Shown: positions 3,955 through 35,911 of the stretch, piece after piece
Numbering within the stretch: position 1 is the first letter of the stretch
Layout of the letters: every line of letters starts with the position of its first letter
IMG/VR virus record: IMGVR_UViG_3300010392_000664
Location: 1 to 64,000 of that record
Reading direction: 5' to 3' (one strand)
DNA from: a virus
Length of the DNA: 64,000 nucleotides
The notes under the pieces: model-generated
The model's input: the letters and a program-made list of their open reading frames with translations, nothing else
Databases searched by the model: none
Told to the model about the DNA's origin: nothing
Translations under genes and position numbers: made by a program

Positions 3955-4371
3955 CTATGAATGACGAAGTGGTTGAAGTGGCATGAATCCTTTATCAGGA
4001 CTCCAACTAAATTCTATATTCATCCCTTCCATAGTACCACAATCAGACCACCTTGCAAATAGGATGTCTTTTTTCATTTCCTCTGCGAGCTTTTTCTCCT
4101 CGCCAACGCCATGAGAAACATCCCACCCTTCCATCATGAAAATCATCAAAGCGTCACACCGCTTGATCATTTCAGTGTCGTATCGTTTCCAGAAAAGATG
4201 ATCAGTAGGAAGATTATGCTGCTTAGCAATCACATGACAGTGAACAATAGGTGAAAAAACGACATGATTATAACGAGACATCAACATTCCCGTAATGCGA
4301 CATGCTTCATCATACCGACTTTCTTGGACTTCTGGTTGATTACTAGAATAAGGTGTCGCCAGATATATCAT
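3955..4371 (-). CDS. DUF1937 family protein (nucleoside deoxyribosyltransferase-like fold)
   Basis: 138 aa. The N-terminus IYLATPYSS and the later DALMIFMMEGWDVSHGVGEE pattern match the DUF1937 group, related to nucleoside 2-deoxyribosyltransferase/SLOG-like Rossmann folds (IYLAxPYS, then D.....GW..S.G...E). A role in nucleotide or base metabolism is likely from the fold, but the substrate is unknown. It overlaps the next upstream gene by 29 bases. Confidence 0.75.
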   Translation of the reverse strand: MIYLATPYSSNQPEVQESRYDEACRITGMLMSRYNHVVFSPIVHCHVIAKQHNLPTDHLFWKRYDTEMIKRCDALMIFMMEGWDVSHGVGEEKKLAEEMKKDILFARWSDCGTMEGMNIEFSWSPDKGFMPLQPLRHS

Positions 4372-4681
4372 CAGATTCTTCCTTTTCTTTCCGCATTTTA
4401 TTGATTTCTTCCCAACCGATCACTCTGATTATGTCCTTCATCGGACCATTGTAATCAGAACCAAATCCCACAACCGTTCCGATGTTTTTAGAACACCTCC
4501 CACGACTGACGTAGGATGCCGGTAATTCAACAACATCCCCGATTTCCAAATCCTCTATGGAATTTCCGTAAGTATACTTTTGAAGATGATCCGTCTCTTC
4601 AACATCTTCAAAAATACCGTAGACGATCAGAGCCTTAGAAGAATCCACTTTTTTGTCTCCCCAAAATGTCAGGTAAATCAC
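4343..4681 (-). CDS. hypothetical protein
   Basis: 112 aa, no recognised domain. The middle (IEDLEIGDVVELPASYVSRGRCSKNIGTVVGF) reads like a small beta-barrel, of the kind often seen in phage accessory proteins. It overlaps the methyltransferase gene upstream by 47 bases and the DUF1937 gene downstream by 29. Overlaps of this size at both ends suggest either a compact operon or a start shorter than drawn. Confidence 0.55.
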   Translation of the reverse strand: MIYLTFWGDKKVDSSKALIVYGIFEDVEETDHLQKYTYGNSIEDLEIGDVVELPASYVSRGRCSKNIGTVVGFGSDYNGPMKDIIRVIGWEEINKMRKEKEESDDISGDTLF

Positions 4682-24032: not shown

Positions 24033-25397
24033 TTATCTTTGAGAAATCATAACCGGACAAGCTATGTCCATACTTCCTGCAACCTTGACATAGCTCCTCT
24101 CATTATACCTGCCCTTTCTTCTTACGATCCAATTGATTCTTGCGGCCCCCACACTTTTTTCATCATGAGAAACATTAATTCCTATCATCCCATTGACGTG
24201 AGCCAGTTTTGTTTTCCGACCGGAAAAGTTCTTTTTACTTAATAATGATTTATCATTTTTATATGCTGTTGCGTCAGATTGTGTAGCTGTTATCACGCAA
24301 CAGTCCCTAGCCTGAGAAATTCTACGCAACCCCTTCCATGTCTCATCAATCTGATCCAGCTTATCACGAACTCCTGCTGGTGGGGCAAGAATATCGGCGT
24401 AGTCGATAAATACCAAGTCAGGTGACCAACCTTCCCGTTTCCAATCAGCAAGAATAGAATCAATGTCATTCACATTGACTGTTGAATTAGGATAATGGGC
24501 AAGCCGAAACGAATCTTCAGATTTAGTGACCTTTTTAAATAACTGGAAACTTGTAATAGGATCAAGAGCATCCAGGGTCACCTCTTTGAGCTGCAGTTCA
24601 CCATTCTTATCCCATTCAAATGGGATCTTCAACTTTGAATCATAACGAGGCATTCCCGTTGCCCGCGAACCTAACCTCACAAGAATTTCGTTCTCGGTAG
24701 AGTCACCCACATCAAAAAAGGCCACCCTCCTGCGGTTACGAAGACCTCGGTATGCTAAATCTAGCATCCAGGTGGTTTTACCGATCTTGTCCGGTGCCAT
24801 GAACGAGTACAAAGTTTTGCGAGTAAATGAATCCCCAATAAATTTGCCCAGGGCACCCCTGTAACGCACCAAAGGTCTTTCACGATCTTGAGAAAAGGCA
24901 TCCATCCAAATTTCAATGCCCGAAGCCGGTTCAATATAACTCCCCGCCCCCAGATTGACCTTTGGTGTGCTGAGCAAACCTTCCCTGGCTGACGCCACAT
25001 CTCCTTTCTCAAGCAGAGCTTTAGCGGTTTCAATGCTTCGGTCAATAAGCACCTTCCCGAAGTGATCTTTGGCATTGTCAAGTAAAACATCACTGTCAAC
25101 CTCCCCCTGCTCATCCGACAACGATTGTAAGAACCGTTCCATCAGTTCGATGGTTTTATCATCAGCTACCGAAGTATCTGCCCACTTCTCAAATATCGAA
25201 ACCATTTGAGAATTCGGTGGTTGCCCATATTTACGAAAATGGGACACCACCATATTTCCGACAAGATTAGCCCACTCTGCAGAAAAAAGGCCATTGCCGG
25301 TCCATTGCGAACTGATTCTGGAACATACCTTCTGGTCAACGATCATGCCCCGCAATATGCGACGGCTCGCAGAGCCATCATATTGCCGATGCTTCAT
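24033..25397 (-). CDS. DnaB-like replicative helicase
   Basis: 454 aa RecA-type ATPase. Walker A is FMAPDKIGKTT near 203-213, Walker B is DLVFIDYADIL, and the motif ITATQSD (Gln switch) follows. The N-terminal 150 residues are helical, like a DnaB N-domain (FEKWADTSVADDKTIELMERF). It should unwind the fork as a hexamer. It overlaps the small gene upstream by 20 bases, which may encode its loader. The 88 bases after its stop contain an AT-rich 8-bp hairpin without a T-run. Confidence 0.82.
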   Translation of the reverse strand: MKHRQYDGSASRRILRGMIVDQKVCSRISSQWTGNGLFSAEWANLVGNMVVSHFRKYGQPPNSQMVSIFEKWADTSVADDKTIELMERFLQSLSDEQGEVDSDVLLDNAKDHFGKVLIDRSIETAKALLEKGDVASAREGLLSTPKVNLGAGSYIEPASGIEIWMDAFSQDRERPLVRYRGALGKFIGDSFTRKTLYSFMAPDKIGKTTWMLDLAYRGLRNRRRVAFFDVGDSTENEILVRLGSRATGMPRYDSKLKIPFEWDKNGELQLKEVTLDALDPITSFQLFKKVTKSEDSFRLAHYPNSTVNVNDIDSILADWKREGWSPDLVFIDYADILAPPAGVRDKLDQIDETWKGLRRISQARDCCVITATQSDATAYKNDKSLLSKKNFSGRKTKLAHVNGMIGINVSHDEKSVGAARINWIVRRKGRYNERSYVKVAGSMDIACPVMISQR

Positions 25398-25728
25398 CCT
25401 CAGCGTCCCCTTCGTCTAAGTAGGAATCCTCTTCATGGAATTGCCGAAGGAAATCTTTCTGACTTTGTTGCCCGACCACCTGAACTTCTGGTTCATCAGA
25501 ATCAAGATGCCCTCGATCAATGATGTTGTTTCTAATTTCGCCCATCGTTGGCATGAATTTATCTGTCGTAGTTTGAATAACACGATCCACTTCTTCTTCG
25601 ACAGAATCAGCAGATAAACCATTCAGTGATCTGGCAAGCATTATGAGCACGTCATCAGATAGATTTCTTCCAAACGCCTTAGCTAATTTTTTGATGACAC
25701 TTATCTTCCTGGCCAAGTCATCATTCAT
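25378..25728 (-). CDS. small replication protein, possible helicase loader/G39P-like
   Basis: 116 aa. A helical N-domain (ISVIKKLAKAFGRNLSDDVLIM to PTMGEIRNNI) looks like the loader/inhibitor domains found before DnaB-like genes in phages such as SPP1 (G39P), and an acidic flexible tail follows. It sits exactly between initiator and helicase genes, with four-base overlap to the former. The assignment depends mainly on this position. Confidence 0.5.
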   Translation of the reverse strand: MNDDLARKISVIKKLAKAFGRNLSDDVLIMLARSLNGLSADSVEEEVDRVIQTTTDKFMPTMGEIRNNIIDRGHLDSDEPEVQVVGQQSQKDFLRQFHEEDSYLDEGDAEDEASAI

Positions 25729-26654
25729 GCCATTGCCTTTTCTTCTGCTTCAAGTCGTTTCATAATTCGTTGAACTTGCTCGTCTTTTTCGTAATCACCC
25801 GAATTGTTTTCACCGGACGAGAATTCAGCTTGTGTTTGAATCCTAGCGAATTTATCACAGAATGCCTTCGCGGAAAACGCCTGGGGAACGTACTGCCCAC
25901 CGATGTTATCACAATACCATTGCAGCACATAATCAAATTCAGAAACCGACAAACCGGAAGATTGCAAAAACGAATCAATCTCAGCAGACCACTTTTTCAT
26001 ATCTGCTGGACGGAATATCTTCCTTTTTGCTTGCAGCCTATTATAGAGCAATTCCGCAGATACTCGGCCATGAGTTTTCTGCGGAATTTCAGAATCACCG
26101 GAAAAGAACCCCTGGGGCTTTCCGGTAATTGATTTTGATGGTTTTTTTCTGGCGGGATTGTCGCCGGGTTTTCCGGCGACATTCTTCACAGTGTTTCTTC
26201 TTCCTTGTTTCTTATTCCTTGTTTCTTCTTTGTCTGTATCTGGTGCACCCCCCTCCTGCATGGGATACAGACCTAGGTCTGTATCTCGTTCACCCCTATT
26301 ATTTTGCCCGTGCAGACCGGTCTGTATATCGTTCACCCCCAATTCCTCGGTAGATATTGGAGTCAATTGACTCAGATAAATGACACAATACAGATTCGAA
26401 ATTGATGACCCGTTTGAATTGGTTCTGCCCTCTGTTTTTATGTAACCCATTTCTTCGAGCTTGCGTAAATGGTTAATGACGGCCCGAATACTGACGCCGG
26501 TTACTTCCGATATGGTTTTGTGAGAAGGAAAGCACGTATCTTTGTTTCCGCAAAAACTTATAAGTGTGGTGTAAATACACCAACTGATCGGCCCTAATTT
26601 TTTCAAATGTTTTCTGTGGTATTCATGGGAAATTTGATAATGCGGGGATTCCAT
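25725..26654 (-). CDS. winged-helix replication initiator
   Basis: 309 aa. N-terminal winged helix (about 15-95, LGPISWCIYTTLI, then a recognition helix VSIRAVINHLRKLEE). A long polar linker (100-190) is encoded by the repeat-rich DNA at 26232-26339. A C-terminal helical domain (200-285) could bind the helicase or its loader. Gene order initiator-loader-helicase and repeats inside the initiator gene follow the lambda O plan. A shorter paralogue of the N-domain lies just upstream (26682-27002). Confidence 0.75.
   Translation of the reverse strand: MESPHYQISHEYHRKHLKKLGPISWCIYTTLISFCGNKDTCFPSHKTISEVTGVSIRAVINHLRKLEEMGYIKTEGRTNSNGSSISNLYCVIYLSQLTPISTEELGVNDIQTGLHGQNNRGERDTDLGLYPMQEGGAPDTDKEETRNKKQGRRNTVKNVAGKPGDNPARKKPSKSITGKPQGFFSGDSEIPQKTHGRVSAELLYNRLQAKRKIFRPADMKKWSAEIDSFLQSSGLSVSEFDYVLQWYCDNIGGQYVPQAFSAKAFCDKFARIQTQAEFSSGENNSGDYEKDEQVQRIMKRLEAEEKAMA
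26232..26339. other. candidate replication origin: iterons and palindromes inside the initiator gene
   Basis: Three related copies of GTCTGTATCTCGTTCACCCC occur on the plus strand, at 26232-26250 (diverged), 26276-26296 and 26319-26339, spaced about 43-45 bases. The second and third are each the right arm of a palindrome: ATACAGACCTAGGTCTGTAT at 26265-26284 is a perfect 20-base palindrome and CAGACCGGTCTG at 26313-26324 a 12-base one. The block lies in the linker-coding part of the initiator, as the lambda origin lies inside gene O. Confidence 0.68.
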
Positions 26655-26681
26655 TACTTGGCCTTTGTCTGGGTCTGAAAG

Positions 26682-27002
26682 TTAAAAGTTTGATGTGACG
26701 GGATCAAGATTTCTTAAAACGTAAACGTACTCACCATTGGCAACAGATCCATCCGGTCGTTTCCAATCTCTTTTGAAAATGAGATCATTTTCAAATAATC
26801 GTTTAAGATAAGTGAAAACGGATCTTTGACTGATGCCCAATTTCCTTGCGATCATTTTCGATGGGATAAAGCAGTAACCCTCCTCACCGGAATACCGACA
26901 AAGGAGGGAGTAGATTGCTAATCCAATTGGGCCGATTCTTTCTGCATACTCATCAATCACCTTGTTTTGGACTGAGAAATTGTCATTCATGAAATCGATC
27001 AT
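26682..27002 (-). CDS. winged-helix DNA-binding protein
   Basis: 106 aa. The segment IGPIGLAIYSLLCRYSGEEG followed by FIPSKMIARKLGISQRSVFTY is a winged helix closely patterned like the N-domain of the initiator downstream, so the two are paralogues. It lacks the linker and C-domain. It could bind the same palindromes and regulate initiation or transcription. It overlaps the ProQ-like gene stop by ATGA. Confidence 0.72.
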   Translation of the reverse strand: MIDFMNDNFSVQNKVIDEYAERIGPIGLAIYSLLCRYSGEEGYCFIPSKMIARKLGISQRSVFTYLKRLFENDLIFKRDWKRPDGSVANGEYVYVLRNLDPVTSNF

Positions 27003-27337
27003 TTTTGTTTTACTCTGAGAGATTCTATGATTGCTTTTGCCTGTTGTTTGTGTTCAAGCAAAACTGGCTCAGCAACGGTTCCGTCCAAATGCCGACGGAT
27101 TGCTCCCATTTTTTGAATAGCATTGAGGTACTCTATTCTCCTGGTCCAATACCGCAGGAGTTTGAAAGCAACCACATTCCTTAAACCGGGGAGATGTTTT
27201 GTAATTTCATGGCGAATGCCAATAGCGAGAGGTTTTGGATTTTCCTTGTTGAAGATATCTGGAAAATCATACTGAAGCACTTGCAGAGCAACAACACTCT
27301 GCTTCATGATTCTGCTGTGTTGTTTTAATGTCGTCAT
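26999..27337 (-). CDS. ProQ/FinO-domain RNA chaperone
   Basis: 112 aa from the ATG at 27337; the open frame starts earlier but only with a TTG inside a terminator. The core matches the FinO fold: FPDIFNKENPKPLAIGIRHEI, a helical part RNVVAFKLLRYWTRRIEYLNAI and GAIRRHLDGTVAEPV. These proteins bind RNA stem-loops with 3' U-tails and act on sRNAs and mRNAs. The gene starts about 16 bases after an intrinsic terminator, so it may bind its own leader. Confidence 0.85.
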   Translation of the reverse strand: MTTLKQHSRIMKQSVVALQVLQYDFPDIFNKENPKPLAIGIRHEITKHLPGLRNVVAFKLLRYWTRRIEYLNAIQKMGAIRRHLDGTVAEPVLLEHKQQAKAIIESLRVKQK

Positions 27338-27352
27338 ATCATCCCATAAAAC

Positions 27353-27387
27353 AAAAAAACCCAGCCTCAATGAACAGGAGCTGGGTC
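27353..27387 (-). terminator. intrinsic terminator just before the ProQ-like gene
   Basis: On the minus strand ACCCAGC and GCTGGGT pair over 7 bp around a 14-base loop and are followed by seven T. It ends only about 16 bases before the ProQ-like start codon, in the direction of transcription, so either a promoter overlaps it or readthrough/attenuation sets expression of that operon. Confidence 0.75.
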
Positions 27388-27503
27388 AAAAGTTTAATGT
27401 AAGTTGTTATGCATTTGTTCATTGATTTTTCATGCAAATGTAATTGAGACAACGGCAACTGTTGGCCCGTATCCCAAAACTACCAAGTTGCGTTGCATAT
27501 TGC
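27388..27503 (-). other. spacer between two terminators with a 22-codon reading frame
   Basis: The region 27338-27681 has no gene longer than 25 codons. It holds two terminators, a 23-codon frame (27588-27659) and, here, a possible 22-residue frame beginning MQRNLVVLGYGPTVAVV directly after the first terminator. No clear ribosome site precedes it, so its expression is doubtful. No sigma-70 promoter is convincing. Confidence 0.3.
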
Positions 27504-27538
27504 AAACAAAAAGGCGGGGTTTGTCTAGTTCCCCGCCC
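27504..27538 (-). terminator. intrinsic terminator
   Basis: Minus strand: GGCGGGG and CCCCGCC pair over 7 bp with an 11-base loop, followed by TTTTTGTTT. It ends the transcript that carries the gene at 27682-28017 and the small frame after it. Confidence 0.85.
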
Positions 27539-27587
27539 AAGTTCTTGTTTCACACAATTGATGTCACTTCATACGGGCCTCATATTG

Positions 27588-27659
27588 TTATGGTTGATGG
27601 TAAAAACGAATCAGAGTCACCCTTACTTTATCTCTCATTGAATCCTTATGAAGTATCAC
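27588..27659 (-). CDS. candidate 23-codon small ORF behind a start-stop element
   Basis: A strong AAGGAGGT is followed by GCATC and then ATGTGA, an ATG directly followed by a stop. The overlapping GTG at 27659 opens a frame of 23 residues starting (M)ILHKDSMRDKVRV and stopping at 27588. Either the GTG is used, or the ATG-stop acts as a ribosome-holding element. Real translation is uncertain. Confidence 0.35.
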   Translation of the reverse strand: MILHKDSMRDKVRVTLIRFYHQP

Positions 27660-27681
27660 ATGATGCACCTCCTTTTTATTT

Positions 27682-28017
27682 CTATTCGAGTTCAGCAAAA
27701 TTTTCTGCTGGGTCATACCACACTTCCTTTATGATATTCCCAATTCGATGTATTTTAGAATTGTCGTAATCTATTCGAACATACTTCCCTACCAAGTCTT
27801 CCCATTTTTCAACACCGACGGTTGAAAGGACGTTTTGTAAGAATTCACCACAAAAATCAAATTCATTGGGTTTATCCTCAATTTTTAACACATAACCACC
27901 AAAACCTTGGCCCCCGCCAGTATGATCAATATAAATCCAAGCGGTTAAAAACACACCTCTTTCAAAACCAAGACTTGTGCTGGAGATTCTGCCGTTTGTT
28001 ATTTCTCGTTTGATCAT
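27682..28017 (-). CDS. hypothetical protein
   Basis: 111 aa, with a good ribosome site (AAAGGA). A beta-rich N-part with a glycine stretch (WIYIDHTGGGQGFGGYVLKI) is followed by aromatic and acidic segments. The layout resembles small host-takeover or accessory proteins; no family recognised. It is the first gene after the two tRNA-like RNAs and is followed by a terminator, so it may be co-transcribed with them. Confidence 0.65.
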   Translation of the reverse strand: MIKREITNGRISSTSLGFERGVFLTAWIYIDHTGGGQGFGGYVLKIEDKPNEFDFCGEFLQNVLSTVGVEKWEDLVGKYVRIDYDNSKIHRIGNIIKEVWYDPAENFAELE

Positions 28018-28051
28018 TTGATTTTTCCTTTTATTTAAAGTTTGGTTTTAT

Positions 28052-28136
28052 TGAACAGGCTAGGAATCGAACCTAGCGAAATTTAGTCTGCTGCGACACA
28101 GGCTGAATCCCCAAATTTCATGACCACATCTGTTCC
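28052..28136 (-). ncRNA. tRNA-like structured RNA, 85 nt
   Basis: Minus strand. The ends pair as GAACAG/CTGTTC (6 bp). The T-arm is GCTAGG-TTCGATT-CCTAGC. A long arm GAAATTT/AAATTTC (7 bp) stands where D and anticodon arms are expected. Between acceptor and long arm is ATGTGGTCAT, without its own stem. No valid anticodon arm fits and CCA is not encoded. This mimics the tRNA-like end of tmRNA (acceptor, stemless D-loop, long arm, T-arm) but without a tag ORF. Confidence 0.55.
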
Positions 28137-28141
28137 AAAAA

Positions 28142-28253
28142 TGAACAAGCAAGGAGTCGAACCTTGCAGAACCCGGCCTTCACCATGACCCGCAACCGGC
28201 GAAGCGGTGGAGATTCGAACTCCCTGGCTAGGTTCTGTGACCGCACTTGTTCA
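28142..28253 (-). ncRNA. tRNA-like structured RNA, 112 nt, with a nested second T-arm
   Basis: Minus strand. Acceptor-like ends TGAACAA/TTGTTCA; T-arm GCAAGG-TTCGACT-CCTTGC; long arm CAGAACC/GGTTCTG (7 bp); and GCGGTCA between acceptor and long arm, sharing GGTCA with the neighbour at 28052-28136. Inside the long arm is another T-arm-like hairpin, GGAG-TTCGAAT-CTCC, with GCGGT and ACCGC able to pair around it. No normal anticodon arm and no CCA. The two RNAs are five bases apart and share the same plan. Confidence 0.55.
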
Positions 28254-28258
28254 AGGTA

Positions 28259-28441
28259 TCAAAAATCCGATTCTTCCATAATGGGAGCACGGCCAACTTG
28301 TTCGCATAAGCCGTTGACCACATCACACACTTCTTTTGCCGATAAACCGCGTTCATCAATCCCGAATACAAAATTCGACCAGTTGAATTCAGTGGCAACG
28401 TCAATCACATCAACCAGAATGCACATTTGATCTTTTGTCAT
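28259..28441 (-). CDS. small hypothetical protein
   Basis: 60 aa from the ATG at 28441, which overlaps the stop of the upstream gene. It is acidic and helical (ILVDVIDVATEFNWSNFVF, KEVCDVVNGLCEQVG). It ends six bases before the tRNA-like RNA at 28142-28253 begins on the same strand. No family recognised. Confidence 0.55.
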   Translation of the reverse strand: MTKDQMCILVDVIDVATEFNWSNFVFGIDERGLSAKEVCDVVNGLCEQVGRAPIMEESDF

Positions 28442-28908
28442 TACACTTCGTGGGTTCCTTCGAACCCTTCCTCTTTTCTGCGAGTTGTTCTGCTTTTCAA
28501 AAATGCCAAAGCATCTCGTAAAGAAGTTATTGCATGTTGATTTTCGGAGCATTTAAATTTAGTAGTTTGGTAGTATACCAGACGATCAAGTGCAGCTTGG
28601 ATCACATCTTCAACAAATGCCCCGTTTTGAGGAATAAGTTCTTCGCCCACCCGAAGTGGGCCTCGTTGCCAACTGATAGTGAATCCGACATCTTGAGTTA
28701 CTCCACCATCAGTATTGCCGTTTTCGTCTGTGAAAAATTTAAGCATCGTCTTCCTTTTCTGCTTTCTGTAACGAGAATTGTCATTCAAAACAATTAGAGT
28801 TTTTGTAGTGCGTTTAACTGTTTTGACACAATCCGTATCAGCTCCGTAACCACGGTCAACAATCACTTTGTCATCAGATTTTAATTCCTGTAACCAAGTA
28901 TAACTCAT
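28441..28908 (-). CDS. protein with an Acb2/Tad1-like hairpin domain (possible cyclic-nucleotide sponge)
   Basis: 155 aa. The N-part (about 1-53) is a basic beta domain; Met55 could start a second, shorter product. The C-terminal 60 residues (VIQAALDRLVYYQ, ENQHAITSLRDALAFLKSR, ending GFEGTHEV) match what I recall of the Acb2/Tad1 hairpin domain, with EN..AI..L..AL..L..RT..R and a GxEGTH tail. Acb2 and Tad1 sequester cyclic signalling nucleotides and so block CBASS or Thoeris. Function here is an inference from this motif. Confidence 0.6.
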   Translation of the reverse strand: MSYTWLQELKSDDKVIVDRGYGADTDCVKTVKRTTKTLIVLNDNSRYRKQKRKTMLKFFTDENGNTDGGVTQDVGFTISWQRGPLRVGEELIPQNGAFVEDVIQAALDRLVYYQTTKFKCSENQHAITSLRDALAFLKSRTTRRKEEGFEGTHEV

Positions 28909-28937
28909 TGTTTTCCTCTATTGTATTGTACACCATG

Positions 28938-28967
28938 TTTATACAAAAAAGACGTGCATTTTGTAAA
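28938..28967 (-). promoter_or_regulatory. sigma-70-like promoter for the Acb2/Tad1-like gene
   Basis: Minus strand TTTACA, 18-base spacer, TATAAA; each hexamer differs from consensus at one base. It directly follows the terminator of the DUF932 gene and lies about 30 bases before the start codon at 28908. A TACAAT further down could be an alternative -10. Confidence 0.55.
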
Positions 28968-28996
28968 AAACGGTGGGGTTTTTTCAAACCCCGCCT
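28965..28996 (-). terminator. intrinsic terminator after the DUF932 gene
   Basis: Minus strand: GGGGTTT pairs with AAACCCC (with two further G-C pairs beyond one mismatch) around GAAA, followed by G and six T. It lies 15 bases after the stop codon at 29011. Confidence 0.82.
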
Positions 28997-29010
28997 CCTG
29001 ATCCCGATCT

Positions 29011-30036
29011 CTACGAGGCGGTGAATGCCGACTTGTAAGCGGCCTTCAATGCCCTTTGTGTACGCTTCTCATTCAAACCGAACAGGTTACTGTACGCCCG
29101 TTTTTCAACCCGGTTCGTGTCATCTTTACCCCGCGATTTGCGATCATGCTGGATGAGTCCTGACCAAGCGTTGAAGGCATTCCAGAAACTTGTTCCGGCG
29201 ATTTCCTTTTCGTCGTCAAACCGTCGCATGAAAGAAGAGTTCGCTTCCATTGCCCGATTTTTCCGATTTTCTTCCACTTTCGTTCCGGGATTCGTTTTGA
29301 ATTCCCCGAATTCCTCAACGTACATCTCAACGAAAAACTTCTGCAGTTGCTCGTTGTTGATCTGTCGCTGAGCCATTCGGTTCATGACTCCTCGCGTAGC
29401 TTCAATCGCTTTTGAGTACTGCTTCAGCATTTTTTTCGCATCCTCAAGTCGATCCTTCACGTTAACCGTGTGCTTGAAAGTGAATGCCGAACCCAACAAC
29501 TCACCGGTGTCATCCCTTGGGATGATGGCATGCAACGTGTTACTGCATACCGCCCGTACCGTCGTCGGTGTCCCTCGAAAGGTAGAAAATCCATCATGAC
29601 CGTTACTGATGAGAGTGTACGGAAAAATCTGATCTCCGTTAGCTACGTCGAATGACTTGCCCTTGAGGAGGAACCACACCTTTTTACCTCCCTGAATGGA
29701 TCCCGCCGTTTCGACCTTTACCAATTCATCGTTAAGTTGCAGTGCCTCACAAAAATCAGCTAATTCGTAATTTTGAATCGGCACATACCGATCACTCGTG
29801 ACTCCCATAAATGTGTTCGTGTCCAATCGCCAATTTGAAAGGTGATCTGGAACCTCGATGTCGTTACCGTCCGGCCCTTTAACGATCAAAGGACGTTGCT
29901 CAATGCCCCATTCCAAACCGGCCAGGGTCAACGCCTCTCGCGGTGTAGGGGCATCCTCAACCACCATTCCCAATCCGTGCCAAGCACCTGATTTGTGAAG
30001 CACTACGTTGTCTGTGTCGGTAATTTCGTGTGCCAT
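29011..30036 (-). CDS. DUF932 phage/plasmid-like protein
   Basis: 341 aa from the ATG at 30036 behind a GAAAGGGA site. The opening (SGAWHGLGMVVEDAPTPREAL), MGVTSDRYVPIQNYELADF and RAVCSNTLHAI are hallmarks of the DUF932/TIGR03299 family found on phages and plasmids. Its biochemical role is not established; many copies occur near replication genes. It stands alone between its own promoter and terminator, so it is likely expressed strongly and independently. Confidence 0.9.
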   Translation of the reverse strand: MAHEITDTDNVVLHKSGAWHGLGMVVEDAPTPREALTLAGLEWGIEQRPLIVKGPDGNDIEVPDHLSNWRLDTNTFMGVTSDRYVPIQNYELADFCEALQLNDELVKVETAGSIQGGKKVWFLLKGKSFDVANGDQIFPYTLISNGHDGFSTFRGTPTTVRAVCSNTLHAIIPRDDTGELLGSAFTFKHTVNVKDRLEDAKKMLKQYSKAIEATRGVMNRMAQRQINNEQLQKFFVEMYVEEFGEFKTNPGTKVEENRKNRAMEANSSFMRRFDDEKEIAGTSFWNAFNAWSGLIQHDRKSRGKDDTNRVEKRAYSNLFGLNEKRTQRALKAAYKSAFTAS

Positions 30037-30083
30037 GATTTCCCTTTCGAAGAGTGTGAAAAAGTTTGACTTCCGATATAGAC

Positions 30084-30111
30084 ATTGTAGACTTGTCTTG
30101 TGAAATATCAA
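30084..30111 (-). promoter_or_regulatory. sigma-70-like promoter for the DUF932 gene
   Basis: Minus strand TTGATA, 16-base spacer, TACAAT, about 50 bases before the start codon at 30036. The -10 TACAAT is the same as in the sigma-factor promoter at 35531. Confidence 0.6.
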
Positions 30112-30151
30112 CTCACGTTTTGTAGTTTTTTGATGATTTTTTGAAAAAACC

Positions 30152-30545
30152 TCAGATAGAGGAATGTTGCTGGAGTTGGTACTCTACCCCACCATTTTTG
30201 GGAATCATGGCCATTGATCCGATGTTTTTCTTGTTTTCGTCAACAAGAATAAGTCTCAGACCTTCTTTTCCCAGATGAATGGTAATTTCCTGCATGACTA
30301 AAGGTTTACTGTTTAGATCTTTCGGATAGTACTCTCCCAAAACATCTTTCAGCATTTCTTCTTCAGTCCAATCCACATAACCTTTTTTGACCCTATTCGA
30401 TGACTGCTGTTTAGATTTGAATACAGCGGCCCAGTTTCTTGCTACTTGGTAAGAGACACCTGGATGGTACTTTTTTTTTCAGGTATTCCTGTATTCTGTG
30501 AATTTTTTGTGTGTTTTTTGTAGGCTTCTTTTTTTCTTCACTCAT
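30152..30545 (-). CDS. hypothetical protein interrupted at a run of nine A (frameshift)
   Basis: From the ATG at 30545 the frame reads MSEEKKKPTKNTQKIHRI to a run of nine A (30471-30479) and then stops at 30411 after 44 codons. One base shift at the run gives YHPGVSYQVARNWAAVFKS and continues without stop to 30152, about 130 residues in all. The downstream part alone has only a GTG at 30376 without a ribosome site. So this is one gene joined by slippage, or a sequence error of one A, or a recent break. No known family. Confidence 0.6.
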
Positions 30546-30570
30546 GTTGTTTTAAACCTCATCTAGAATT

Positions 30571-30602
30571 GAAAACATCCCCCTGGATTAACAGGAGGAT
30601 GT
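30571..30602 (-). terminator. probable intrinsic terminator after the HARE-HTH gene
   Basis: Minus strand: ACATCCTCCTG pairs imperfectly with CAGGGGGATGT around TTAATC, followed by TTTTC. The T-run is short, so strength is uncertain. It lies about 40 bases after the stop at 30641. Confidence 0.5.
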
Positions 30603-30640
30603 GGTAAAAAATTCAGCTTCGCTGCACACATCTTAGAGTT

Positions 30641-31129
30641 TTAGGATTTCAGGCCGAACTTACCACGATCGACCTTCTCAAACCGTGACTCGTCGCCTTT
30701 GACCTTGATCTCGCGAGCAATAGCCGCCGACAACGTAGCGTGAGGAGTTTTGCCTCCCGGTGAAGTCCAGTACCCCTTTTCAGACATCTGCTCAATCAAC
30801 TCTTTCGCATTCAAAGGATTGTCAGATTCACCGAGAACCTTTGCTGCTGCATCAAGAGCACTGGTCTTCTTTTCTTTCGGTTTACTGTCCTTCTTGGGCT
30901 TTTCATCTTTGGTTTCAGCTTTTGCGGCTTCCTTGGTTTCCGCGTCTTTGTTTTCAGCTTCCTTTGTTGCTTTGTTACCACGTGCCATTTCGTTCTCCCA
31001 ATCTTTTGCGTCTTCTGGATCTCTCGGTCTGCCGCATCTGGAGCAGTTCCGAAATTCGTAATGATGAACCGCACCGCACGACTCATCTTCGCATACACAG
31101 CGAATTCTTTTTGTGCTTGACCGAATCAT
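30641..31129 (-). CDS. HARE-HTH domain protein with zinc ribbon
   Basis: 162 aa from the ATG at 31129 (AGGA five bases before it). An N-terminal zinc ribbon (C-x-C ... CSRC) is followed by a Lys/Glu/Ala-rich linker (about 45-85) and a C-terminal winged helix: [40 protein letters not shown], then [11 protein letters not shown] and KVDRGKFGL, which is the HARE-HTH pattern. Such domains link chromatin, RNA polymerase or restriction factors to DNA. It may regulate phage or host transcription. Confidence 0.78.
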
Positions 31130-31157
31130 GTGCATCCTATCGTGTGATGTTTACCTG

Positions 31158-31388
31158 TCAAGTTCTGATTACGCTATTTCTTCCAAATTTCTCATTTCGA
31201 AGAGCATGATCGACTATCATTTCAACCAAGCCCTTCAGATTCTCTCCACCACCGATTCCAATCAAAACCCGTCCGGATGCCCAATTACAAAATTCATTGT
31301 ACGTCATCTCAGTGGCATGCTTTGGTCTGTATTTTGATGATTCAACTTCGACAACTTCCCTTTCCTTTTTTCGACTTTTCCTTGGCAT
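31158..31388 (-). CDS. small basic hypothetical protein
   Basis: 76 aa, with AAAGGA before the ATG at 31388. A very basic N-terminus (MPRKSRKKERE) is followed by a compact helical part (EMTYNEFCNWASGRVLIGI, GLVEMIVDHALRNEK). Nucleic-acid binding is possible. It precedes the HARE-HTH gene by 28 bases. Confidence 0.6.
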   Translation of the reverse strand: MPRKSRKKEREVVEVESSKYRPKHATEMTYNEFCNWASGRVLIGIGGGENLKGLVEMIVDHALRNEKFGRNSVIRT

Positions 31389-31390
31389 GT

Positions 31391-31789
31391 TTATTCCTTT
31401 AATGGATCAAATTCAGCAAAAAGTTGATGTTCAGCAGCAAATCGAATGCAAAATTCATAAAGCTGTTTTATAGCCTCTGGATACCCTTCAAAATAAACTT
31501 CTTTTCGATAAGCAATAACGACATAACGAATACATCCATTATCCCGCATGTTATCCGCCATTTCAGACATGACGTAATCTTCTTCTGATCCATAAACATG
31601 CCAATAGTGGTGGCCTTCTTCCTCATCTAATCTTTCACATTCCAGACGTGTTTCATCCAATCCTTGGACTAAAGATTCATAATTTGGAATGTACTTTTGT
31701 AGAGTTGGATTTTCCTTGACGACAGCCAAATGGTTAAAGTACCCACATTCAAAAACCTGTTTAGTAGGGGTAATCCATCCTGCCTTCAC
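31391..31789 (-). CDS. hypothetical protein
   Basis: 132 aa if it begins at the GTG at 31789, which has AAAGGG upstream; the open frame also reaches a TTG at 31810. The protein is acidic with many aromatic and His residues (EEEGHHYWHVYGSEEDYV) and a C-terminal helix. No family recognised. An extended -10 promoter lies just upstream. Confidence 0.6.
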   Translation of the reverse strand: MKAGWITPTKQVFECGYFNHLAVVKENPTLQKYIPNYESLVQGLDETRLECERLDEEEGHHYWHVYGSEEDYVMSEMADNMRDNGCIRYVVIAYRKEVYFEGYPEAIKQLYEFCIRFAAEHQLFAEFDPLKE

Positions 31790-31834
31790 GATTTTCCCTT
31801 TCGGTAACAATTGATGTTTTCTTTCGTCGGCATC

Positions 31835-31862
31835 ATTATACCACCAACTGCAGTAAAGTCAT
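31835..31862 (-). promoter_or_regulatory. sigma-70-like promoter with extended -10
   Basis: Minus strand ATGACT, 16-base spacer, TATAAT; TGG directly precedes the -10, giving TGnTATAAT. It lies between the primase stop (31881) and the gene starting at 31789, in a 70-base gap with no other signal. Confidence 0.6.
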
Positions 31863-31880
31863 TGAATAAAATGACAATTT

Positions 31881-32765
31881 CTAAAAGATTTCAAGAAATT
31901 CGCTGCGAATCGACTGAATTTCTTCAGGATCTGCCGTCGCCGCATCATCCCCGGTTTCTAGTTCAACATTTATGGTGACCCCGTCAAACATCGACAATTC
32001 CTCACATAACTGTCCAGCTCGATGTTGGGCATCTTCTTCAGAATCGAAACATATTGCTCGAACCGGGTATTCCGCAATCGCCGCCAATTGCTGAGGGCTA
32101 TAACCGACGCCACACGTTGCCACACAACCGGGTCCAATAGCCCAAGCGTCAATCGGTCCCTCGACAACTACAATGGCGTGACGGGCCAAGTGTGACCCAT
32201 ACAACAAGGTCTTATGAGGAATCAATTCTTCTTCCGATTTCGCAGCCAAATATCTGAAATCAGTTTTTTCTTTTATCGACCGAGATGTCCATGATACTAC
32301 GTTACCAAGTGAATCATGGATAGGAATGAAGATCCGCCATTGTAGAGGATGGGGAGGTCCGATTCCTTTGATTTCCCATAACCGTGAGATTTCATGAGGA
32401 TCGAATCCTCTCGAACGAAGGTATTGATTATGGGCAGGAAGAAGATCATTTATCCCTATCGGGAGTTTTAATGTACCAGTGTGCTCTTTTGGACTGTAGA
32501 ACTGAAAACCTAGCCCATCACTAAGTTCTTTTGCTTCATGGTAACTGATACCACAAAGCATTGCCAACATAGTAATGCGACTTTGACGCCCACAGAACCA
32601 GCAATTTGTTCTCCCGGAGGAGATATCAAATCCAAGTCGGAATTTTCTATAGTTGGGAGAACACTTCGGGCAATCCACACCAACCCATCCAGATCTCACA
32701 TTTCTATGATCACCTTCAAGGCGGAACTCAACATTATATTGAACAAGAATATCTATTATGTTCAT
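31881..32765 (-). CDS. DNA primase (DnaG-type zinc finger plus Toprim)
   Basis: 294 aa. Zinc finger CPKC...CWFC at about 32-58, then a middle domain and a Toprim fold with VVVEGPIDAWAI (catalytic Glu) and AICFDSEEDAQHRAG (Asp-x-Asp variant DSEED). It is shorter than bacterial DnaG and has no helicase-binding domain, like many phage primases. It would make RNA primers for the DnaB-like helicase/PolA fork. Confidence 0.88.
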   Translation of the reverse strand: MNIIDILVQYNVEFRLEGDHRNVRSGWVGVDCPKCSPNYRKFRLGFDISSGRTNCWFCGRQSRITMLAMLCGISYHEAKELSDGLGFQFYSPKEHTGTLKLPIGINDLLPAHNQYLRSRGFDPHEISRLWEIKGIGPPHPLQWRIFIPIHDSLGNVVSWTSRSIKEKTDFRYLAAKSEEELIPHKTLLYGSHLARHAIVVVEGPIDAWAIGPGCVATCGVGYSPQQLAAIAEYPVRAICFDSEEDAQHRAGQLCEELSMFDGVTINVELETGDDAATADPEEIQSIRSEFLEIF

Positions 32766-34974: not shown

Positions 34975-35490
34975 TCAACCAAAAATAGCTGATTTTGTTG
35001 CACGAAAAGCCTTAGTCACCCTGGCAACGGACCATCCAGATTCGTGCAAATATTCACGAAGGGAGGATCTCCAATTGTAAGGGCGACCACCCTTATCTGA
35101 TGCTGAAACAGTAAGTGCCACCGGTGGGTTTAAAAGCAATCGAATGACGGTTTTTGAATCTTCAGTAAACCCATCACAAAATTCATCAAAGTTGAATTCC
35201 TGTCTTTTTAGACAAGAGAGCATTTCGATTGAAATGTTAGTAAGAACACCTTCCACCAATTTGTTGTGCCCTCTAATCACATTGCTCAACTTGTTGTTGA
35301 TGCAGGTGCCAAGATAAGTGGTGAATTTGATTCCTCGATTCGGGTCATACGAACGACGGGCAGCAAGGTATGCCTCATACGCAGGAGTCAACAAATCCTC
35401 CGGTTCCCTGTAGTTGAACTTTTTGGCATTTCGATGAATCAGCATCCATACGAATTTTTCCACATCTTCATAACTTTGTTTTTCGGGCAT
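34975..35490 (-). CDS. phage-encoded RNA polymerase sigma factor
   Basis: 171 aa from the ATG at 35490 (MPEKQSYEDVEKF); the frame extends upstream through the promoter and cannot be coding there. Region 2 is seen as EPEDLLTPAYEAYLAARRSY and GIKFTTYLGTCINNKLSNVIR. A region 4-like helix pair closes the protein (SSLREYLHESGWSVARVTKAF). It probably directs host RNA polymerase to later phage promoters. A consensus-like sigma-70 promoter lies immediately upstream. Confidence 0.85.
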   Translation of the reverse strand: MPEKQSYEDVEKFVWMLIHRNAKKFNYREPEDLLTPAYEAYLAARRSYDPNRGIKFTTYLGTCINNKLSNVIRGHNKLVEGVLTNISIEMLSCLKRQEFNFDEFCDGFTEDSKTVIRLLLNPPVALTVSASDKGGRPYNWRSSLREYLHESGWSVARVTKAFRATKSAIFG

Positions 35491-35530
35491 TGTGCCATCC
35501 CTGTAAAAATGGAAGTTTTGGTATGGAGAC

Positions 35531-35559
35531 ATTGTACACATGTCTTCAAACAATGTCAA
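35531..35559 (-). promoter_or_regulatory. strong sigma-70-like promoter of the sigma factor/replication operon
   Basis: Minus strand TTGACA (perfect -35), 17-base spacer, TACAAT (one change from consensus). It begins four bases after a strong terminator and lies about 40 bases before the sigma factor start. This is the best promoter seen in the window and suggests that host RNA polymerase starts the early genes here. Confidence 0.85.
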
Positions 35560-35562
35560 CTC

Positions 35563-35624
35563 AAAAACCGGAAATAGTCCATCGAGGAGATGCCGCCACA
35601 GGAAAACGGCTGGACTATTTCCGG
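35563..35624 (-). terminator. strong intrinsic terminator ending the sugar/methylation block
   Basis: CCGGAAATAGTCCA pairs with TGGACTATTTCCGG over 14 bp without mismatch, around a 29-base loop that has a small GCCG/CGGC hairpin of its own, followed on the minus strand by TTTTTG. The stop codon (TAG) of the gene at 35615 lies within the stem. Confidence 0.85.
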
Positions 35625-35911
35625 CTTGGGTCAACCACATTGCCATTTTCGGCAATCAGTTTAGAATCCCCCATAAAATGTTTCCAAATTTTCCAATAAT
35701 GTTCAGGATCTCGTACTTCGCTATCCCGAATGAGTCTTTGGCTTCCCCGAACATCCCAGCAATTCAAAAATACCCCACATACCGAAAATGCCTCAACCCG
35801 CACTATTTGCCCATCTTTAATCTCGGTCAACTCTAAATAAAGTGACGGAGTCTCCTCGACATCATCCTCTTTAAGCCAATCCTGAATTTTTCTTTTAATC
35901 CACTTCAGCAT
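35615..35911 (-). CDS. hypothetical protein
   Basis: 98 aa. A basic amphipathic N-terminus (LKWIKRKIQDWLKEDD) is followed by a beta-rich part (TPSLYLELTEIKDGQIVRV). It is the last gene before the terminator. It overlaps the methyltransferase-like gene upstream by 17 bases. No known family. Confidence 0.6.
   Translation of the reverse strand: MLKWIKRKIQDWLKEDDVEETPSLYLELTEIKDGQIVRVEAFSVCGVFLNCWDVRGSQRLIRDSEVRDPEHYWKIWKHFMGDSKLIAENGNVVDPSRK

Follow-up and report, generated by a model that had tools for sequence, protein, structure and literature searches.

Two tandem phage-encoded RNAs with an acceptor/T-arm helix and no anticodon arm, best described as non-decoding tRNA mimics

An uncultured tailed phage known from an IMG/VR virus record of 93,004 bases carries two adjacent tRNA-like elements on its minus strand: unit 1, of 111 nt (28142..28252), and unit 2, of 84 nt (28052..28135). 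Coordinates refer to the window, the 64-kb stretch of DNA (64,000 nucleotides) that opens the record. The two units are best called paralogous, phage-encoded tRNA mimics that do not decode; they are of the type of a tRNA-like domain (TLD), made up of an acceptor/T-arm helix, a D-like joint and a long arm. An earlier note, made from the letters alone, had described a tandem of tRNA-like RNAs without anticodon arms; this is confirmed, and both lie on the minus strand. Three observations underlie this: the anatomy is common to both units, it is improbable by chance, and base pairs have changed in a compensatory way from one copy to the other.

Both units follow one plan: a 7-bp acceptor, U8, an 8-nt joint UGYGGUCA, an 8-bp long arm closed over an insert (28-57 nt across the units), a T-arm and a discriminator A. 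Unit 1 is read from 28252 to 28142, with the discriminator at 28142. The 5' strand of its acceptor, GAACAAG (28246..28252), forms 7 bp with CTTGTTC (28143-28149); the stemless joint UGCGGUCA (28238..28245) provides U8 and a GG placed as in G18G19; the long arm pairs CAGAACCU (28230..28237) with GGGUUCUG (28167-28174); and the T-arm CAAGG-UUCGACU-CCUUG (28150..28166) is followed by CUUGUUC-A. Unit 2 is read from 28135 to 28052, where its discriminator A stands. Its acceptor pairs GAACAGA with CCUGUUC (28053-28059), the seventh pair being A.C; the joint is UGUGGUCA (28121..28128), the long arm UGAAAUUU (28113..28120) with AAAUUUCG (28077-28084), and the T-arm CUAGG-UUCGAUU-CCUAG (28060..28076). 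All these features lie on the minus strand; the units are delimited by a structural descriptor, by covariation and by matches to model R1, the T-arms by folding and covariation, and the joints by their sequence.

The return strand of the long arm runs directly into the T-stem in both units, leaving no variable loop, and the joint, identical between the units except at its one Y, takes the place of the D-arm. The stemless joint containing GGTCA had been recognized beforehand in both units, as had the canonical T-loops (UUCGAYU in both); the stems of the T-arms had been put at 6 bp and are in fact 5 bp, continuous with the 7-bp acceptor, and the long arm, taken for 7 bp, has 8 bp in the register common to both units, with 0 nt between it and the T-stem. 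No CCA is encoded, the bases after the units being TTT and ATA. The stacked 7+5 acceptor/T helix, U8, the GG of the joint (as G18G19 of a D-loop), the T-loop and A73 are together those of the upper half of a tRNA. Both units thus have the acceptor/T-arm, a TTCRANT loop, U8 and A73, and both lack the D-stem and the anticodon arm; a cloverleaf with a D-arm and a 7-nt anticodon loop is absent.

Such an arrangement is rare by chance. A T-arm joined to an acceptor is expected 0.027 times in a dinucleotide-shuffled 93-kb genome, and 150 such shuffles gave no match to the full descriptor, whose only two matches in the real 93 kb are units 1 and 2. The two copies also support each other's pairing. When 20 pairs are compared between them, six have changed on both sides and are still paired, two have a one-sided change that leaves a standard pair, 11 are the same in both copies and one, the A.C at acceptor pair 7 of unit 2, is broken; 39 of the 40 cells are therefore paired (97.5%), against at most 50% when the strands are slid by one column. 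An absence of covariation in homologues had been named in advance as a finding that would count against these RNAs; covariation is present between the paralogues and, coming from two sequences, may be regarded as good but limited evidence for structure. It also bears on the idea that the units are decaying tRNA pseudogenes that have lost their D- and anticodon stems. Although the mismatch in the acceptor of unit 2 and the confinement of the pair to one lineage, with no homologue in kin phages, would suit such a history, neutral decay would not keep one new plan in two copies, nor is it expected to leave a long arm in which four of the eight pairs have changed on both sides and none is broken. 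We consider decay highly improbable.

Folding agrees with the plan. The minimum-energy fold of unit 2 is the proposed structure plus three extra pairs inside the joint, and the constrained fold of unit 1 lies 0.7 kcal/mol above its minimum-energy fold. Fold energies on the minus strand are unremarkable (z -1.2 and -1.7), and the plus strand of unit 2 also folds well (z -3.75). The strand is therefore called from the T-loops (three TTCGANT loops in all), U8, the GG of the joint, A73 and the direction in which the neighboring genes run.

The insert of unit 1 holds a further element. A second T-arm, GGAG-UUCGAAU-CUCC (28209..28223, minus strand), already seen in the longer unit by the earlier note, turned up in 15 of 200,000 shuffled versions of the insert and is genuine. 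It adjoins a closed acceptor-like stem, CCGC-UUCGCCGGUU-GCGG, with a 10-nt loop (28190..28207, minus strand), which is followed by GUCAUGGUGAA (28179-28189), and GCC/GGC pairs within the insert extend the long arm. Both the nested T-arm and the closed stem form in a fold in which only the outer plan was constrained, so that the helices of the insert arose unimposed. Judged from this one sequence, the insert might represent a circularly permuted second elbow composed of the nested T-arm, the closed acceptor-like stem and a GGUCA joint. Unit 1 could then be a double-headed tRNA mimic whose open acceptor end carries a TLD-type elbow and whose shared arm bears the permuted elbow at its far end; we put this reading forward tentatively and hold it to be possible rather than probable. 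We know of no description of such an architecture, which would here stand beside a single-headed paralogue.

The pair lies among tailed-phage genes. The record encodes a terminase, a portal, a tape measure protein and replication genes, the latter comprising a split family-A DNA polymerase, a sliding clamp, a clamp loader, a DnaB-like helicase and replication initiators; almost all genes lie on the minus strand. A sigma-70 region 2 protein (PF04542, E=3.9e-6) at 34975-35655 (minus strand) is perhaps a phage sigma factor. ARAGORN finds no tRNA gene across the entire record, so the pair is not part of a tRNA array. Both units fall within the roughly 240 bases that separate a 97-aa ORF (28259..28552) from the gene of a 111-aa protein, phrog_30930 (27682..28017), both on the minus strand. 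The 97-aa ORF, whose function is unassigned, has no match in Pfam and PHROG searches and a single weak relative, in a kin phage locus (L241).

This placement raises the question of whether the units merely punctuate a transcript: RNase P and 3'-processing enzymes would cut the polycistronic RNA at them, separating the 111-aa gene from the genes upstream, or the units would protect the ends of that RNA, and once released they would have no task of their own. The flanking genes are close and on the same strand, the 97-aa ORF ending 6 nt ahead of unit 1 and the 111-aa gene starting 34 nt beyond unit 2, and an acceptor plus a T-arm is the minimal substrate of RNase P. RNase P nevertheless needs neither a second copy nor a covarying long arm nor the GG conserved in the joint, and this reading leaves the insert of unit 1 without explanation; punctuation alone is fairly unlikely in our estimation. 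A partner within the phage can also be envisaged, since two genes (0.7 kb) downstream on the same strand lies a gene for a ProQ/FinO-family RNA chaperone (26999-27370; PF04352, E=1.3e-16), of which the units could be regulatory RNA ligands. A terminator-like hairpin, GGCGGGG-11 nt-CCCCGCC followed by TTTTTGTTTG (27503..27537, minus strand), nevertheless separates the pair from this gene; it was found by reading the sequence, its loop exceeding the size allowed by the terminator scan. ProQ/FinO genes are also carried by other phages (distant relatives occur in those of Erwinia, Aeromonas, Salmonella and Shewanella), and the tRNA features would lack an explanation, all of which leaves a role as ProQ ligands a slim prospect.

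Searches with the DNA polymerase and DnaB led to true kin phages (34-55% identity). The RNA pair was not found in the parts searched of 16 kin loci, and where the primase-DnaB interval of kin was covered, this syntenic interval contained no TLD. The interval (25397-31881) measures about 6.5 kb here vs. about 1.6 kb in one kin locus (L239), and the pair lies within its expanded accessory stretch. Using the flanking 155-aa and DUF932 proteins as bait gave no homologous RNA locus. The patterns GGTTCGANTCCTNGCNTGTTC and GAACNNNTGNGGTCA...TTCGANTC, run against viral contigs and GTDB genomes, returned only other tRNAs, tRNA-like genes and chance matches; the pattern GGTCA...GGTTCGANTCC returned no homologue among the matches listed; BLAST among phages gave short snippets and nothing more; and weak matches to model R1 in tRNA-rich contigs were mostly ordinary or odd tRNAs. 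The pair thus appears, so far, to be lineage-specific. As neither kin nor patterns yielded a homologue, the evidence of conservation is that of the two paralogues alone.

The descriptor that matches the units does pick up further tRNA-like elements, with a long arm and no D-arm, in other phage contigs. Those of L165 (4406-4486; Rfam tmRNA E=3e-7) and L190 (3797-3945; E=3e-10) score below the gathering threshold of the tmRNA model and are much shorter than a normal tmRNA, and an 80-nt element of L135 (6650-6729, minus strand), identical in L216 and located inside a large phage tRNA array, gives a weak and partial tmRNA match (E=0.01). A 16-nt loop motif common to L165 and L135 was considered as a family marker and rejected: it otherwise occurs outside such elements, in apparently coding DNA, and is therefore not evidence of a family. 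Separately, a repeated arrangement AGTCAGG...ACAGG-TTCGANT-CCTGT-CCTGACT, uncalled by ARAGORN, occurs in the phage contigs L103 (787-892), L156 (6272-6365) and L176 (359-448 and 1145-1248), and possibly represents intron-bearing tRNAs or odd tRNA-like RNAs.

What could such RNAs do? The top half of a tRNA is the part recognized by processing and ribosome-rescue factors. In the units this half is kept and the codon-reading half is missing, which suggests decoys rather than working tRNAs, and it is plausible that they imitate tRNA in order to engage a host factor. Our preferred proposal, which we rate somewhat short of an even chance, is that the units are processed, uncharged decoys for a host tRNA- or tmRNA-handling factor, with SmpB as a first guess. 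They would be co-transcribed with the surrounding genes and freed from the operon transcript by host RNase P and 3'-processing enzymes, after which the CCA enzyme would add CCA. They would stay uncharged with alanine, unable to decode or tag. Presumably uncharged, since A3-U70 stands in place of G3-U70, and with no usable mRNA part, they could accumulate as competitive ligands and occupy a host factor that binds tRNA at its elbow and acceptor. The target would most likely be SmpB, and the presumed benefit to the phage would come through the tmRNA ribosome-rescue pathway; that no SmpB gene was found in the phage itself counts against this. A phage precedent puts SmpB first among the candidates. 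Mycobacteriophage DS6A encodes a TLD-only (CDS-less) tmRNA, little more than the tRNA-like domain (PMC4131195; PMC11915505), and the passages on it in these two articles, which cite Mao 2009, relate that a molecule of the DS6A form strongly inhibited tmRNA in E. coli, perhaps via titration of SmpB.

The decoy idea had also been extended to defense nucleases that target tRNA. For anticodon nucleases this is improbable: RNAs that lack an anticodon arm offer them nothing to cut and cannot serve as bait. Its other form, in which a host defense enzyme or toxin acts on the acceptor, the CCA end or the T-arm, is retained as an unlikely alternative: phages do counter tRNA-targeting defenses with tRNAs of their own, and the acceptor/T-arm half is intact in both units, yet no such partner was seen. 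If SmpB or a tRNA-processing enzyme is what the units bind, they would act as RNA-based inhibitors of ribosome rescue or of tRNA handling. ARAGORN overlooks phage RNAs that copy only the elbow and acceptor of tRNA, and in this case Rfam does too; judging by the elements of L165, L190 and L135, such RNAs seem to be under-annotated and amenable to screening.

Among known RNAs, the closest geometry is that of the tmRNA TLD. The resemblance had been pointed out beforehand and is sound as regards geometry, as the same descriptor picks the tmRNA-matching elements of L165 and L190: shared features are a 7-bp acceptor, a stemless D-like joint with GG, a long P2-like arm, 0-1 nt before a 5-bp T-arm, and A73. 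In contrast, the joint of the units has 8 nt vs. about 10 in the tmRNA model, differs in sequence and has nothing like GGAUUCGAC; the third acceptor pair is A3-U70 in both units instead of the alanine identity pair G3-U70; and an mRNA-like domain and pseudoknots are absent. Neither unit encodes a tag that ends in Ala-Ala or the like, in line with the prior reading, and the only short stop-ended frame of unit 2, as read from the letters, would finish in ...VAAD and not in AA. ARAGORN, recommended beforehand as a check, and Rfam called the units neither tRNA nor tmRNA, and at E<=10 they match neither the Rfam tRNA model nor the tmRNA model (RF00023). The missing tmRNA match and the A3-U70 pair make them best called TLD-type mimics, and tmRNA proper is rejected on these grounds together with the lack of a tag. 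The elements of L165, L190 and L135 share with the units the absence of a D-arm, the long arm, the T-arm, the phage context and their escape from ARAGORN, and those of L165 and L190 likewise have a second tRNA-like element nearby (4322-4404 and 2194-2291, respectively), itself without G3-U70. They differ in that all three carry G3-U70 and that the tmRNA matches of L165 and L190 are significant. YrlA and mascRNA have in common with the units a tRNA mimicry without an anticodon, and permuted mimics, like the insert of unit 1, place the T-arm ahead of the D-like part. A bacterial Y RNA is rejected, with no YrlA (RF02553) match at E<=10 and no TROVE/Ro gene in the phage, and the mascRNA model (RF01684) reaches only E=0.36. 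Finally, the DS6A RNA, likened to the units by its published description and not by sequence alignment, is also phage-encoded, extends little beyond the tRNA-like domain and has no tag frame; the pair described here differs from it by its two tandem copies, by A3-U70, by going unrecognized by the tmRNA model and by the nested second T-arm of one unit.
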